Assembly (NCBI GenBank): GCA_900554555.1
Contig: USIC01000049.1
Span: 1-6,500 of the forward strand
Reading direction: 5' to 3'
DNA: 6,500 bases
Source of the DNA: an uncultured Solobacterium sp.
GTDB lineage: Bacteria; Bacillota_I; Bacilli_A; Erysipelotrichales; Erysipelotrichaceae
In this document: in pieces, positions 1,016 to 6,500 of the stretch
Numbering within the stretch: position 1 is the first letter of the stretch
Layout of the letters: every line of letters starts with the position of its first letter
Program-made: the position numbers and the translations under genes
Notes under the pieces: model-generated
The model's input: only the letters and a program-made list of their open reading frames with translations
The model's database searches: none
Told to the model about the DNA's origin: nothing

Positions 1016-1049
1016 ATCTGGTTATATGATTTTCTATCAATCTGGTAAT
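1016..1049 (+). promoter_or_regulatory. Candidate MocR operator upstream of the kinase: direct repeat ATCTGGTTAT / ATCTGGTAAT
   Basis: ATCTGGTTAT (1016-1025) and ATCTGGTAAT (1040-1049) match at 9 of 10 positions and are 24 bp apart start to start. They end just upstream of the expected -35 position for the -10 box at 1071-1076. The same core, CTGGKWAT, occurs as an inverted pair at 3061-3082 between the MocR regulator and the transporter gene. Direct repeats just upstream of a promoter are a usual MocR-family site layout and often mean activation. Assignment to the regulator encoded at 1971-3044 is an inference from motif sharing and context. Confidence 0.5.
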
Positions 1050-1102: not shown

Positions 1103-1948
1103 ATGAAGAAAATTGTGACAATGCAGGATATATCCTGTGTAGGAAAATGCTCATTAACAGTTGCTTTACCTGTACTATCCGCGATGGGTATTGAAACTGC
1201 TGTAATTCCAACTGCTGTACTTTCAACACATACCATGTTCAAAGGTTTTACCTTTCATGATTTAACCAGTGAAGTAAATCCAATACTCGCTCACTGGCAA
1301 AAAGAAGGTTTTACATTCGATGGAATCTATACAGGATATCTTGGTTCCTTCGAACAAATCGATCTTGCAAAAAAGATATTTGAAGAGTTTGGAACCCATG
1401 CCCTACGAATTGTAGATCCATGCATGGCAGATAATGGAAAACTATACACAGGATTCGATATTCCATTTACTAAGAAGATGCGTGATTTGTGCGCCATCGC
1501 AGACATCATTGTACCAAACCTCACAGAAGCTTCCTTCTTATTAGATATTCCATATCAGGAAAAGTATGATGAAGAATACATCAAGCATGTGTTACGTCAA
1601 TTAACAGACCTTGGTTGTCATACCGCAATTATCACAGGTGTAACATTTGAACCAGGCCGTATCGGTGCGTATGCATATGAAAAGGATACAGATACATACA
1701 CGACATACTTTAACGAAGAAGAACCACAGCACTTCCACGGCACAGGTGATATTTGGGCAAGTACATTCAGCGGTGGTCTCTTACAAGGTTTATCCCTACT
1801 ACAAGCAATGACACTTGCCTGCGATTACGTGAAAGAATCCATCCATAAAACACTGGCAGAAGAAAACCACAATATCTATGGTGTTAACTTCGAACAAGCA
1901 ATGCCATTCCTAATTACATCATTACAGAAATACAAAAAGGAACACTAG
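1103..1948 (+). CDS. pdxK: Pyridoxal/pyridoxine/pyridoxamine kinase (PdxK/PdxY type, ribokinase fold)
   Basis: This cytoplasmic enzyme uses ATP to phosphorylate the 5'-hydroxyl of vitamin B6 vitamers, the committed step of B6 salvage. It has 281 residues, normal for this family. The N-terminus carries the substrate-side strand (MQDISCVGKCSL, about 7-18) of the PdxK/PdxY group. VDPCMADNGKLY (104-115) matches the family's DPVMGDNGKLY segment. PNLTEA (138-143) is the conserved PNxxEA block near the nucleotide site. HGTGDIWASTFSGG (212-225) is the ribokinase anion-hole motif, with Asp216 as the expected catalytic base. The start is supported by AGGAG 7 nt upstream. Its stop codon lies inside the terminator hairpin shared with the convergent MocR gene. 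The nearby MocR regulator and ECF S component support a B6 rather than a hydroxymethylpyrimidine role. The exact vitamer preference cannot be read, so the choice between pdxK and pdxY is uncertain. Confidence 0.92.
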   Translation: MKKIVTMQDISCVGKCSLTVALPVLSAMGIETAVIPTAVLSTHTMFKGFTFHDLTSEVNPILAHWQKEGFTFDGIYTGYLGSFEQIDLAKKIFEEFGTHALRIVDPCMADNGKLYTGFDIPFTKKMRDLCAIADIIVPNLTEASFLLDIPYQEKYDEEYIKHVLRQLTDLGCHTAIITGVTFEPGRIGAYAYEKDTDTYTTYFNEEEPQHFHGTGDIWASTFSGGLLQGLSLLQAMTLACDYVKESIHKTLAEENHNIYGVNFEQAMPFLITSLQKYKKEH

Positions 1949-1958
1949 TTCCTTTTTT
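1934..1958. terminator. Bidirectional terminator between the kinase and MocR genes
   Basis: AAAAAGGAAC (1934-1943) and GTTCCTTTTT (1948-1957) form a perfect 10-bp stem with a 4-nt loop ACTA. Six T residues (1953-1958) follow on the plus strand, and the A run gives a matching T run on the minus strand. The kinase stop TAG (1946-1948) lies in the loop and at the foot of the hairpin. The MocR gene stops at 1971, only 13 bp away, so this single structure can serve both converging transcripts. Confidence 0.88.
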
Positions 1959-1970
1959 CATGCATGCATA

Positions 1971-3044
1971 TCATTTTCTCATTTTCTTTCTCACACGATT
2001 GATGTGTCTTTCAAAGCTTCCGTTCTGTATTAACTCTGCAACAATATACTGCATGAGTGTTGAAACTGTATTGGAGCGAAAAGAGATTCTGTCTTGAAAC
2101 TCCTTTAGGTTTTTCTTCGGTAATATCATATATCCAATACGAACTGATGGTGCAATTGTATTGGAGAAAGTATTTAGATAGATTACTTGTTCATCATCTA
2201 AAGCATATAGTGTTTCTCTACCATTCATCCCTAAGGTATATTCAGAATCATAATCATCTTCTACTATCCATGCATGATTTTCCTTTGCCCAGTGGATATA
2301 TTGTTTTCTCTTGTTGATATCTGTAGTACTACCTGATGGATAACTGTGATATGGCGTCACATGTAATACATCCGCATGATTCTTTTGTAGTTCTGAATTT
2401 AAAATACCATTCTTACCAAGTTTCATGTGTATAAGTTTTACATTCTCTGCTTTATACATGAGTGAGATTTTTTCGTATGATGGATTTTCAATCGCATATA
2501 CCTTATAACGTCCAATCATACTCACTAGAATTCCATAAAAGTATTCTGAGCCAGAACCAATAATAATCTGTTCTGGGTCCACATAGATTCCACGAACACG
2601 TGCTAAGTATGACGCAATCGTTTTACGAAGATACAGCAAACCATTCCATGGCGGCTTTGTTAGTAATACATCCTGTCGCATACTTAATACTTTCCGTGCA
2701 GCCATCGCAAATACATTGGAAGAAAACAGTTTATCATTTGTAATCTGTATTTCTGGTAAGATTTCGATACTACTATCTTCTTTGGCACTAAAAAAATCTT
2801 TTTCAAGATAGCTTACGTAGTATCCACTCCTCATTCGAGAAGTGATATATCCTTCTGATGCTAGTAGTTCATATGCATGTGCGACTGTAATCACACTGAC
2901 ATTTTCTTTATCAGCCAAGATACGTTTTGAAGGTAGCTTATCCCCTGTTTGATATATTCCATGAATAATATCATTACGAATCTTTAGGTAGAGATCCATG
3001 TATGCTTTGGTTGTATTGTTCATATTCCATTCCAATCTGGTCAT
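1971..3044 (-). CDS. MocR/PdxR-type GntR-family regulator, C-terminally shortened and lacking the PLP lysine
   Basis: MocR proteins join a GntR winged-helix domain to a PLP-binding aminotransferase-like domain; PdxR members use PLP to sense B6 status. The winged helix is present (about 16-78): LPSKRILA at 37-44, VSVITVAHAYELLASEGYI at 49-67, then the wing RMRSGYYVS. The aminotransferase-like part begins near 110 and keeps PPWNG (131-135), GSGSEYFYG (163-171), TPYHSYPSG (230-238), VEDDYDSEY (261-269; expected PLP contacts Asp263 and Tyr265) and Arg302. Two features are abnormal. The family's FSKT reads FSNT, so the Schiff-base lysine is Asn295 (codon AAT at 2162-2160). The protein also ends at 357 residues, just after FERHINRVRK, where relatives continue for roughly 100 residues; the terminator follows immediately, leaving no room for a remnant. 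The 3044 start lies only 5 nt from a perfect -10 box, so Met8 at 3023 may be the real start. DNA binding looks intact; PLP sensing is doubtful. It is divergent from the transporter gene and convergent with the kinase. Confidence 0.9.
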   Translation of the reverse strand: MTRLEWNMNNTTKAYMDLYLKIRNDIIHGIYQTGDKLPSKRILADKENVSVITVAHAYELLASEGYITSRMRSGYYVSYLEKDFFSAKEDSSIEILPEIQITNDKLFSSNVFAMAARKVLSMRQDVLLTKPPWNGLLYLRKTIASYLARVRGIYVDPEQIIIGSGSEYFYGILVSMIGRYKVYAIENPSYEKISLMYKAENVKLIHMKLGKNGILNSELQKNHADVLHVTPYHSYPSGSTTDINKRKQYIHWAKENHAWIVEDDYDSEYTLGMNGRETLYALDDEQVIYLNTFSNTIAPSVRIGYMILPKKNLKEFQDRISFRSNTVSTLMQYIVAELIQNGSFERHINRVRKKMRK

Positions 3045-3048
3045 ATAA

Positions 3049-3057
3049 ATTATAACA
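3049..3057 (-). promoter_or_regulatory. Extended -10 promoter element of the MocR gene
   Basis: On the minus strand TGTTATAAT (3057-3049) is a perfect -10 box with the TGn extension, which can compensate for a poor -35 box; the best candidate, TTATCT at 3078-3073, lies inside the palindrome at 3059-3084. The -10 box ends only 4 bases before the first ATG of the MocR frame (3044-3042). Transcription would therefore begin at about that ATG, implying either leaderless translation or initiation at Met8 (3023), which has only a weak GGAATGGA element before it. Confidence 0.5.
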
Positions 3058-3058
3058 T

Positions 3059-3084
3059 TTCTGGGTATATACAGATAACCAGAA
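3059..3084. promoter_or_regulatory. Palindromic candidate operator between the divergent MocR and transporter genes
   Basis: TTCTGG (3059-3064) and CCAGAA (3079-3084) are perfect inverted arms. Across the whole 26 bp, 10 of 13 symmetric positions pair, giving half-sites TTCTGGGTAT and, on the minus strand, TTCTGGTTAT. The palindrome covers the -35 positions of both divergent promoters: TATACA at 3068-3073 for the transporter, and the region upstream of the extended -10 for the regulator. Binding here could control both genes at once. The half-site matches the direct repeats upstream of the kinase gene (1016-1049). Confidence 0.6.
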
Positions 3085-3118: not shown

Positions 3119-3607
3119 ATGAATATTTCAGTTAAAAGATTTACTTTAATCGCAATGTTACTAGCGATGACGATAGTTTTATCTTCATTCAGTATCCCGG
3201 TACCAGGTGGGCATCTATATTTCAATGACTTAGTCATTGTGGCTGCTGCACTCATGTTAAACCCTGTCGAGGCTTTCCTCGTTGGTGGTCTTGGTGCATT
3301 CCTTGGTGACTTATTCTTCTATCCAACACCAATGTTTGTTTCCCTTGTTACTCATGGTCTACAGGCAATCGTAATTTCCTTATTAATATCCAAGAAGGAA
3401 AATCCAACTTTAAAAGATTATATTTTTGCGGTAACTGTAGGTGCAATTATCATGGTTGTGGGATATACAATAGGACGTGCATTCATCTATGCAAATCCAC
3501 AAACTGCAATGCTCAAGCTACCATTCCAGATTGTACAAGCTAGTTTCGGAGCAATCATGGCAGTTATCTTGCATACACGCTTACCACTCAAAAGATTTCT
3601 AAAATAA
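3119..3607 (+). CDS. ECF transporter S component, probably for vitamin B6 (PdxU-like)
   Basis: This small integral membrane protein of 162 residues is the usual size for an ECF substrate-binding S component. About six hydrophobic segments are visible: 7-24, 33-50, 52-67, 73-91, 101-121 and 133-153. The PGGHLYFNDLVIVAAALMLNPVEAFLVGGLGAFLGD stretch (30-64, given here by its ends and Gly/Asp pattern) and the positively charged C-terminus are typical of the vitamin S-component superfamily. S components bind one vitamin and need a shared EcfA/EcfA'/EcfT module; none of these is in the window, so it presumably uses a module encoded elsewhere. B6 specificity is inferred from the divergent MocR regulator, the nearby kinase and the shared operator motif; relatives take thiamine precursors, riboflavin or other compounds. 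The start is fixed by GGAGG at 3110-3114. The gene is monocistronic, followed by a terminator. Confidence 0.82.
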   Translation: MNISVKRFTLIAMLLAMTIVLSSFSIPVPGGHLYFNDLVIVAAALMLNPVEAFLVGGLGAFLGDLFFYPTPMFVSLVTHGLQAIVISLLISKKENPTLKDYIFAVTVGAIIMVVGYTIGRAFIYANPQTAMLKLPFQIVQASFGAIMAVILHTRLPLKRFLK

Positions 3608-3772: not shown

Positions 3773-6500
3773 TTATTCTTCTTCTTTTTTCTTTTTCTTT
3801 CCTACTAGATAAATTACATATCCTCCAGATACAGCTAGGACAGTTCCACCGGCAACAAGAAGAGGATTGATACCACTTTCCTTTTCTTCACTATTTCCAG
3901 AAGTATTTTCTGAAGTAGACTGCTTATTCTCTTGCTCCTTAGAATCTTTCTTAGAATCCTTAGGCTTATCTTCTTTATTCTTTGAATCCTTATTCTTTTT
4001 GTCAGATTCCTTAGTAGACTGATTTGGGTTCTTTTGTTTATCTTGATTATCTAAATACTCAAGATTAGCAAGAATAGCCTTAAATCCTTCTTTTGCCTTA
4101 TTCAATAAATAGATGTTATTTGCAACAACTTGTGAATCATTTTCTAAGTCTGCTTTCGTGCCATTCAACTGATTCAACTGGTTAAGAATTACATTTAATT
4201 TATTCATCAATACGTTGTACTCAGCTTCATGCTGACCAAGAGTATTTATTGTTGCATAATCACTTGAACTACGTGCATTATAATCTGCTCTAAATGACGC
4301 TAACTTTCCATTCTCTACATTTGCAACACTAGATTTTGTTGCTAATGTTGCATTAGCAGCTGTTAAGTTATTTCTATGTGCAGCAATATCAGCATCATAG
4401 ATTGTTGGATCCAATGTTGGTAGTTCGTTATTGATCTGATTTACTCTGTTGTTGATATTCTTTTGGCTATCTAGTAATTGTTTAGCTTGTTCAACCAGCT
4501 TCTTCTGATCTTCAACTAATTGAGCTTGATTATTTACAAGTGTTTCTTTGGCAGCTTTATCTGCTTCAGCAGAAGTAATAGCATTCTGCTTATTTGTAAC
4601 TTCAAATGCCTTAGTTGCAATTTCACCATTCTTGGCATTAATCTTGCTCTGAACATCTGCTAATTTAGCTGCATTATCAGCCAAATCTGCAATAACCTTA
4701 TTTAGTTCTGCTTGTTTTGCATTCTTATCACTTACAAGAGCATTCTTTTCAGCTGTTAATTGATTAAACTTCTTGTTTGTTTCATTAAATTGTTCTAATG
4801 CCTGCTTAGCATTTGTTAATGCACTATTCTTTGTAGCAAGATTGCTCTCTAATGTGCTAATCTGTGTTGCTAACTGTTGTGCTTCTGTAGTAGCATTAGC
4901 AGCCATTTGTTCTAACTGGGCTAACTTCTGTTCAGCTTCAGTCTTCTTCTGAACTGCTGCTGTCTTATTTGTGTTTGCAGTTTGAATAGCGTTTGCTGCA
5001 TTATCAATCTTTGCTTGTTCAGCAGCGATTGTCTTTGTGACTTCTTCAATAGCCTTATTGATATTTGCTAATTTTTGTTCAGCCTGTACCTTTTCTGCCT
5101 TCTTAGCTGCAATTGCTGCTTTAGCATTATTCAATTCTGTTTGTAACTGTTGTGGAACAACCTTATTTACCCAGTTAGTAGCAATTTCACGGAAACGTTC
5201 CTCTGTGTAATAACCATTCTCTTCAGTCATGAATGCTTTCATCTTAGCTTCATCATTTACACCTACAGGTGGATATAGAGGAATTGCATGATTCTTATCA
5301 CTATAAGCATATGATGTGTTTGCCTGTCCTAAAATCTCAAGTCCTACACCAGAATAGAATGAAGGAACACCATCCTTACCTACATCTTGACGTTGGTTAG
5401 CGCCTGTCTTAATAAACATATAAGGGGATATTGCATATAACTTACCAAACTGGTCAGAGAACCACTTGTAATGACCACCGTTGGATGCCTTCTCATCATC
5501 CCACCAACCTTTCATAGATTCCTTTTCGTATGATGTGTCTGCTCCAAACAAAGATTCCTTGCCTGTTGCTGTAAATAGGTTATCAGCACCGTTTACATAG
5601 TCATGATACCAGTAGTTATTAGCGCCGATAGCAACCGCAATAGCTTCCGTTAACATACTACGTACATCAACCTTAACTGGTTCTAAACCTGCTGCCTTAC
5701 GACGGTTATTAAGTTCTGTAACAGTATTTACCATACGCATTAAGTTATCCTTAGCCGATGTTAATACTGTTTCATCACCATTCAGCCACTCACGAACTGT
5801 CTTAACTTGGTTGTAATCCTTACTATTTTGAACGACCATTTTAATTGGTGTATTCATTACGAACTCAAGGTATTCATCCCAAGTCTGAGGTTGTGTTGCT
5901 GATGCATTCAATGTACCAGTCTTTAATGTTGGAATTGAACCACCGTTAGCCTTTAAGAAGTTTAAGAATGAAGAGTTATCTGTTGCTTGAGCAATCTTAT
6001 CTTCTACTTCCTTCTGCTTAGCTTCAAGTGTTGCTAATTCCTGTGTCTTAGTATCTAATGAATTCTGAATATTTGTCTTTTCAGATTCCTTCTCATTCTT
6101 TGTTTGCTCTGCTGCTAACTTAGCCTGCTCCGCATTTGTCTTAGCTTGTGTCTGTTCTGCTATCGTATTATCTAATGCGGAGATCTGATTCACTAAACTA
6201 GCTACTTCATCTTTCTTTGTCTGAATCTGTGTTTTTAATTCAGGCGAAGTAATTTCTGCTAAACGAGTACGTTTTGCTTCTAAATCTTGTTCGATTGTAG
6301 AGATTTCACTTGTGATACTTGCTACATTCTGTTCTAGAGTCTGCTTCTGAGCTGTAAGAGTTGCTTCGTTTACACCTAAAGCATCAATTTCTGCCTGCTT
6401 ATTAGTAATAGCTTGTGTCACATCAGCAATCTGATTATCAAGAGTGTTCTTCTCTTCTGTCTTAGCTGTTCCTGTTGCTTCTGTTTGAGACTTGCTATCT
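3773..6500 (-). CDS. Large coiled-coil surface stalk protein with a central CAP-like domain, N-terminus outside the window
   Basis: The frame stays open to the window edge, so 908 residues are visible (counted from the first whole codon at 6499) and the signal peptide must lie beyond it. A GTG at 6421 is internal to the frame and not a credible start. Visible order: Ser/Thr/Glu-rich start (1-20); coiled coil rich in Gln, Lys, Ala and Asn (about 20-176); CAP/SCP-like globular region (about 228-395), with NRRKAAGL (265-272), YHDY (298-301), DNLF (306-309), WWDDE (332-336) and GGHYKW (341-346); second coiled coil (about 450-700); further helical region (to about 815); Lys/Ser/Glu-rich linker (about 816-876); one hydrophobic helix (877-900); KKKKKEEE tail. 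No LPXTG motif is present, so it looks membrane-anchored with its stalk crossing the wall. The helix-CAP-helix layout resembles PrgA/SEC10 surface-exclusion proteins. A role in adhesion or in blocking cell or mating contact is inference; no conjugation genes are in view. Confidence 0.85.
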   Translation of the reverse strand, partial: DSKSQTEATGTAKTEEKNTLDNQIADVTQAITNKQAEIDALGVNEATLTAQKQTLEQNVASITSEISTIEQDLEAKRTRLAEITSPELKTQIQTKKDEVASLVNQISALDNTIAEQTQAKTNAEQAKLAAEQTKNEKESEKTNIQNSLDTKTQELATLEAKQKEVEDKIAQATDNSSFLNFLKANGGSIPTLKTGTLNASATQPQTWDEYLEFVMNTPIKMVVQNSKDYNQVKTVREWLNGDETVLTSAKDNLMRMVNTVTELNNRRKAAGLEPVKVDVRSMLTEAIAVAIGANNYWYHDYVNGADNLFTATGKESLFGADTSYEKESMKGWWDDEKASNGGHYKWFSDQFGKLYAISPYMFIKTGANQRQDVGKDGVPSFYSGVGLEILGQANTSYAYSDKNHAIPLYPPVGVNDEAKMKAFMTEENGYYTEERFREIATNWVNKVVPQQLQTELNNAKAAIAAKKAEKVQAEQKLANINKAIEEVTKTIAAEQAKIDNAANAIQTANTNKTAAVQKKTEAEQKLAQLEQMAANATTEAQQLATQISTLESNLATKNSALTNAKQALEQFNETNKKFNQLTAEKNALVSDKNAKQAELNKVIADLADNAAKLADVQSKINAKNGEIATKAFEVTNKQNAITSAEADKAAKETLVNNQAQLVEDQKKLVEQAKQLLDSQKNINNRVNQINNELPTLDPTIYDADIAAHRNNLTAANATLATKSSVANVENGKLASFRADYNARSSSDYATINTLGQHEAEYNVLMNKLNVILNQLNQLNGTKADLENDSQVVANNIYLLNKAKEGFKAILANLEYLDNQDKQKNPNQSTKESDKKNKDSKNKEDKPKDSKKDSKEQENKQSTSENTSGNSEEKESGINPLLVAGGTVLAVSGGYVIYLVGKKKKKEEE

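Follow-up and report, generated by a model that had tools for sequence, protein, structure and literature searches.

The window, the 6,500-nucleotide stretch of DNA analysed here, encodes a naturally shortened MocR/PdxR-like regulator that lacks both the C-terminal small subdomain of its aminotransferase-like domain and the lysine to which PLP is normally bound as an internal aldimine. With evenly balanced confidence, we propose that it regulates vitamin B6 salvage as a shortened protein of the PdxR type, that it has no need of the aldimine and that it senses a phosphorylated B6 vitamer non-covalently. We hold a little more tentatively that it stands for a whole natural clade in which the small subdomain is gone, the aldimine lysine is often gone and a covalent PLP sensor has become a reversible ligand sensor. 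The gene and the codon in question are as follows.

1971..3023, minus strand: mocR, a short MocR/PdxR-like regulator of 350 aa, with a GntR-type wHTH and the large subdomain of a fold type I aminotransferase; the small subdomain is absent

2160..2162, minus strand: codon AAT of Asn288, at the position of the PLP Schiff-base lysine (GabR Lys312); the same residue is found in P0002, L032/L074 and L001

The mocR start at 3023 is preferred from alignment with relatives, and residue numbers follow this 350-aa form; the alternative start at 3044 would add seven residues and make Asn288 residue 295. Phe-Ser-Asn-Thr is encoded at the lysine block, with AAT at 2162-2160 on the minus strand, and phmmer sets Asn288 against GabR Lys312 and against the Schiff-base lysine of PdxR from Bacillus clausii (7pq9), which confirms the asparagine that a sequence-only reading of the window had placed at the PLP Schiff-base position. 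That reading had allowed for a sequencing error and had suggested an alignment of homologues as a check. An error is excluded, since Asn is also carried by three relatives: P0002 (97% identical to the window protein; a cluster of 1907 member sequences), L032/L074 (96%, by AAT; genome G164, on a 2.6 Mb contig) and L001 (71%, by AAC). All three share the missing small subdomain as well. The short mocR is under purifying selection, as indicated by a dN of 0.02 against a dS of 0.464 in the comparison with L074 (dN/dS ~0.04); the aminotransferase part alone gives a dN of 0.024 and a dS of 0.507, and dS is saturated in the comparison with L001.

The N-terminus contains a GntR-type wHTH (PF00392, 53 bits against a cut-off of 27), and the protein passes the PdxR model NF052282 with 366.5 bits (cut-off 320), as do 5/5 other short proteins scanned. 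The match stops at model position 359 of 448. The features that define a MocR are divided: the fold type I aminotransferase-like domain is present, the aldimine lysine is absent (Asn288), and the aminotransferase (AAT) domain is incomplete, the C-terminal small subdomain of ~100 residues being absent. Under the strict definition, which asks for a complete AAT domain and the aldimine lysine, the window protein is no classical MocR; its sequence, fold, neighbours and curated score mark it as a descendant of PdxR.

In the predicted structure of the window protein (mean pLDDT 88.7, with an alignment of 81 of 121 proteins), the large subdomain superposes on B. clausii PdxR at 2.0 A over 254 residues and on GabR at 1.7 A over 253 residues, and the structural alignment runs out at residues 371-373 of the PdxR and GabR chains. 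Because the window protein ends at about GabR residue 373, the equivalent of GabR Arg430 is lost. The whole-chain fit to the full-length PdxR and GabR chains, DNA-binding domain included, is ~12 A because the single-chain model sets the two domains differently. The possibility that the small subdomain is encoded further downstream was ruled out: 26 small subdomains from long relatives, used as queries at E up to 0.01, found no remnant in the 29 short loci (the window, L001 and L074-L100). As a positive control, 13/13 long loci were matched, each by 18-25 of the 26 queries, partly by their own sequences. The early stop is followed by a terminator-like structure.

1934..1957, minus strand: terminator-like hairpin, directly past the early stop, between the convergent mocR and pdxK

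Two terminator-like hairpins were found in the region against 1.0 expected, with folding z-scores of -4.0 and -5.0 on the two strands.

The two genes that flank mocR provide the linkage to B6 genes by which a PdxR is recognised, since both adjoin it and share repeats with it.

1103..1948, plus strand: pdxK, pyridoxamine kinase (NF005491, 306 bits against a cut-off of 231), convergent with mocR

3119..3607, plus strand: ECF transporter S component (PF07155, 101 bits against a cut-off of 27), divergent from mocR

The S component is putatively PdxU-like, by context only; its best NCBIfam match is a folate ECF family, below cut-off, and the family models name no substrate. In L074 both neighbours are kept, with ~1.7 kb separating mocR from pdxK; in L001 pdxK adjoins mocR, and an ECF relative was not found. 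Relatives of pdxK and/or the ECF gene lie near mocR in 13/29 short loci (the window, L001, L074, L076, L078, L084, L087-L089, L096 and L098-L100) and in 3/13 long loci, and position 288 in those 13 short loci is N, T, Q, R or K. No relative of the window's pdxK or ECF gene was found in the other 16/29 short loci, on stretches of 3-19 kb; a scan of ten neighbour genes, nine of which come from loci lacking a pdxK or ECF match, gave a mixed picture. The AraC-type regulator encoded at 157-1008 of the window lies upstream of pdxK, and relatives of both genes are side by side in L001 and L074. At 3773-6499, running off the window, a long coiled-coil-like protein is encoded, probably surface-anchored, with a C-terminal hydrophobic stretch and a lysine-rich tail; it has no Pfam match, and its NCBIfam matches, mostly SMC-like, are all below cut-off.

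Vitamin B6 salvage is the probable source of the cofactor in related genomes, because in 10 of them PdxS gave no match above cut-off (two weak matches fell below it; control 10/14 genomes) and PdxJ was absent (control 4/14 genomes). In an overlapping set, the short protein is the sole match over both domains in 10/10 genomes, most related genomes consisting of many contigs and possibly being incomplete; the other matches there are N-terminal (HTH) only, plus one weak aminotransferase match.

Operator-like repeats precede pdxK and also occupy the gap that separates mocR from the ECF gene.

1017..1045: direct repeat CCAGA-N19-CCAGA, in front of pdxK

3036..3064: direct repeat resembling an operator, TCTGG-N19-TCTGG (minus-strand reading CCAGA-N19-CCAGA), in the interval that separates mocR from the ECF gene

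3079..3083: CCAGA, inverted, as the third box of the mocR/ECF operator-like site

The CCAGA-N19-CCAGA pattern was picked by eye in the window and tested afterwards. It occurs twice, at two promoter regions, and 0/200 shuffles contained two copies; with one mismatch allowed, the window still gives two matches and 6/200 shuffles reach two. The 19-kb L074 locus has the pattern twice, at the same genes as the window, and the 11-kb L001 locus has none at up to 1 mismatch. Among CCAG pairs upstream of mocR, 24 bases is the commonest spacing up to 45 in the short loci (7/29) and the only one seen in the long loci (4/13), both being raw counts with near relatives included. A genome-wide repeat scan of G164 returned six matches, of which two fall at the sites by mocR and pdxK, against 0 in the reversed control; the other 12 genomes gave 8-49 matches against 1-12 in the control, among the matches listed. 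Among predicted MocR operators, a pair of direct boxes is described as common, whether or not an inverted box accompanies it, and apo-PdxR is reported to favour direct repeats and PLP-bound PdxR inverted ones (PMC5320631). A TATAAT at 1071-1076 follows closely on the pdxK repeat, and this placement of the repeat would suit activation; a consensus promoter scan gave no support (7 found against 13.8 expected), and this TATAAT is not in its list.

The window protein belongs to a group of short proteins. Among the best 120 of 7213 homologues, chosen by likeness to the window protein and with proteins of up to ~610 aa eligible, 119 are under 410 aa. An order-level search matched 54/196 genomes at E up to 1e-45, and 27 of the 54 have a short protein, as counted from frames and extracted proteins. 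In a FastTree analysis of 188 proteins, with position 288 left out of the alignment, the short proteins form one branch with a support of 100 once the chimera P0029 is set aside, and the shortening maps to that one branch; FastTree warned of long branches, mostly among the long proteins. P0029 (445 aa, from a metagenome) is 98-100% like L007 to about residue 270 and from there on nearest to long proteins. It was rejected as a second full-length state inside the short clade, being a chimera of assembly or a recombinant. HTH-only matches below 330 aa (L003-L005) and L002, a copy of L001, were dropped before alignment, and the long comparison set left out P0029 and 14 rows of an FSR/FSK clade. 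Near copies were kept (window/P0002/L032, L007/P0007 and L033/P0094), so that the counts given here are rows and not events; the short rows total 147 with P0051 and 146 without it.

Position 288 varies widely within this clade, with K in 97, R in 19, E in 11, Q in 8, N in 4, M in 4, T in 2 and H in 2 of the 147 sampled short rows. It requires 29 changes, which makes it a roughly middling column among the short rows (63% of columns need fewer). Among the short rows, the 66 positions conserved in the 26 long relatives have changed a median of 3 times, and position 288 ranks third of these, after 268 (46 changes) and 266 (44). Exchange between K and non-K accounts for at least 23 changes on the short part of the tree, and the well-supported branches alone force 12 changes for the group of short K rows. 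As 25/26 long relatives have K here (L013 has Ile), we infer that the direction was from lysine to other residues. The non-K states are not stray errors, since groups of rows share them (8 E, 4 N, 3 M, 3 R and 2 T). The lysine loss and the kept pocket of the sequence-only reading stand. The case is not isolated, since the clade varies at this position, and that reading overlooked three things: that the small subdomain is lost, that the neighbours are B6-salvage genes and that operator-like repeats are present.

Variation at the lysine position was also observed elsewhere. A second MocR clade from related genomes (L018-L031), full-length, has Arg for the lysine in 10/14 rows, and in 12/14 rows the position of GabR Tyr281 is taken by His; the ECF S component of the window was matched weakly in 8/14 of its loci, and L018 passes the PdxR cut-off over nearly its full length. 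The Ile-bearing L013 is a full-length PdxR-like protein (468 aa) whose tree neighbours are seven K-bearing relatives.

The other residues of the PLP pocket can be assigned from GabR, whose residue roles are given in Table 2 of PMC6917764.

2256..2258, minus strand: Asp256 (GabR Asp279, pyridine nitrogen); Asp in 147/147 short rows, 0 changes

2139..2141, minus strand: Arg295 (GabR Arg319, PLP phosphate); Arg in 147/147 short rows, 0 changes

2250..2252, minus strand: Tyr258 (GabR Tyr281, ring stacking); Tyr in 76 and Phe in 71 of 147

2475..2477, minus strand: Tyr183 (GabR Tyr205, ring stacking); Tyr in 143 and Phe in 4 of 147

2340..2342, minus strand: Tyr228 (GabR Phe250); aromatic in 145/147

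Asp256, Tyr258 and Arg295 are the Asp263, Tyr265 and Arg302 that had been listed as persisting, and they are indeed present. The 27 changes that position 228 shows in the short rows are, judging by its make-up, for the most part exchanges of Phe and Tyr. Part of the pocket is relaxed, because 266 and 268 change more than 288, and because position 226 (GabR His248), which is His in 26/26 long relatives, has 22 changes in the short rows. Other residues are specific to the clade: Ser227 and Tyr242 occur in all short rows and not in the long relatives, and Lys238 occurs in 145/147 short rows where 26/26 long relatives have Arg. From this sequence pattern, the pocket of the short proteins fits one that is maintained and modified rather than decaying. 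Lys185, at the GabR Arg207 position, is found in 128/147 short rows, more rarely in rows without Lys288 (37/50) than in rows with it (91/97). A search for a replacement lysine was negative, the sole position with a lysine frequency more than 0.2 higher in the non-Lys288 rows being 97 (0.32 vs 0.08).

In the short clade the lysine is dispensable and the residues that hold the ring and the phosphate are indispensable, which suggests that a phosphorylated vitamer is sensed non-covalently. Non-covalent PLP binding and ligand independence had both been raised from the sequence, and both are still live options. The main rival to non-covalent sensing is a ligand-blind regulator, a constitutive DNA-binding factor that binds no B6 vitamer, whose own level sets pdxK and transporter expression and whose pocket is conserved because folding or dimer contacts need its residues. 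A MocR that loses the lysine may lose the ligand with it, since EnuR Lys302His is reported to incorporate no PLP, to be still dimeric and to act as a constitutive repressor (PMC8739950); the small subdomain is gone, with it the Arg430 equivalent, and positions 288 and 226 vary freely. A ligand-free pocket would, however, be expected to drift, and the PLP-holding Asp256 and Arg295 are unchanged in all 147 short rows while positions 183, 228 and 258 are aromatic in 147, 145 and 147 of them, so that we regard ligand blindness as possible but rather unlikely. Non-covalent sensing is itself weakened by the relaxation of 226, 266 and 268 and by the 16/29 short loci without pdx neighbours, and L001, which has Asn but neither the CCAGA-N19-CCAGA repeat nor an ECF relative found, also counts against the reading.

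Re-purposing of the pocket, either for a different ligand or for B6 bound through another lysine (Lys185 or the clade-specific Lys238), seems improbable: the clade-specific Ser227, Tyr242 and Lys238 and the frequency of Lys185 speak for it, but Lys185 becomes rarer, not commoner, where Lys288 is missing, and the genes beside the window's mocR are still those of B6 salvage. Since active sites of the fold type I kind are close to where the subunits meet (PMC6677901), the lysine might be supplied in a mixed dimer by a full-length MocR partner in the same cell; no such MocR was found in 10/10 genomes, which contain only HTH matches and the one weak aminotransferase match in addition to the short protein, and we consider this very unlikely. 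Slighter still is the chance that mocR is a degenerate gene on its way out or a product of sequencing or assembly error. In its favour, the sensor domain has lost two key parts, but three relatives are in the same state, the dN/dS is ~0.04, a terminator-like hairpin directly follows the stop, and 119 of the best 120 of 7213 homologues are equally under 410 aa.

The regulator has kept its DNA-binding domain, the aminotransferase large subdomain and the ring- and phosphate-holding pocket residues, and has lost the small subdomain and the internal-aldimine lysine. According to the non-covalent sensing that we favour, it would most likely bind the direct CCAGA repeats before pdxK and between the mocR and ECF genes. 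PLP, PMP or PNP would be held non-covalently in the pocket, and the level of the phosphorylated B6 vitamer would set expression of pdxK and of the ECF gene, the presumed targets; the substrate of the ECF transporter would then be B6-related. If this is true, half an aminotransferase pocket senses phosphorylated B6 vitamers by non-covalent binding. The clade would also offer a natural experiment that parts sensing from aldimine chemistry, with K, R, E, Q, N, M, T and H relatives available for comparison, and it bears on the control of B6 uptake in bacteria seemingly without B6 synthesis.

No description of a short, lysine-variable MocR group was found in the literature searched: the texts covered, including PMC5320631, PMC6677901, PMC4944035 and PMC11619246, yielded no natural MocR that is short or without the lysine, and a term search of PMC5026710 returned no mention of one. 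In a survey of 1331 aminotransferase domains of MocR proteins, Asp279 and Lys312 are reported as conserved across all clusters (PMC6677901). In contrast to the universal Lys312 of that survey, the short clade keeps the Asp and swaps the lysine repeatedly after the loss of the small subdomain.

Of the known systems, B. clausii PdxR (7pq9, 7zla, 7zn5, 7zth and 7zpa) shares with the window protein the wHTH, the linker, the large subdomain and the Asp, Arg and aromatic residues of the pocket, and the window regulator is likened to it in targeting B6 genes; unlike the window protein, it has the lysine and a 478-residue chain with the small subdomain. The group A Streptococcus PdxR-PdxKU locus (PMC11619246), to go by the title of the paper, unites genes of the three kinds seen in the window. 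Bacillus subtilis GabR (4n0b, 5t4j, 5x03 and 8vxl) has the same architecture as far as residue 373, where the linking helix ends, and its Tyr205, Phe250, Asp279, Tyr281 and Arg319 all have equivalents in the window protein; in GabR, however, Lys312 forms the aldimine and Arg430 of the small subdomain holds the carboxylate of GABA (PMC6917764), and the window protein has neither. EnuR Lys302His resembles the window protein in being a MocR without the Schiff-base lysine, but it is an engineered and full-length protein (PMC8739950), whereas the window protein is natural and shortened.
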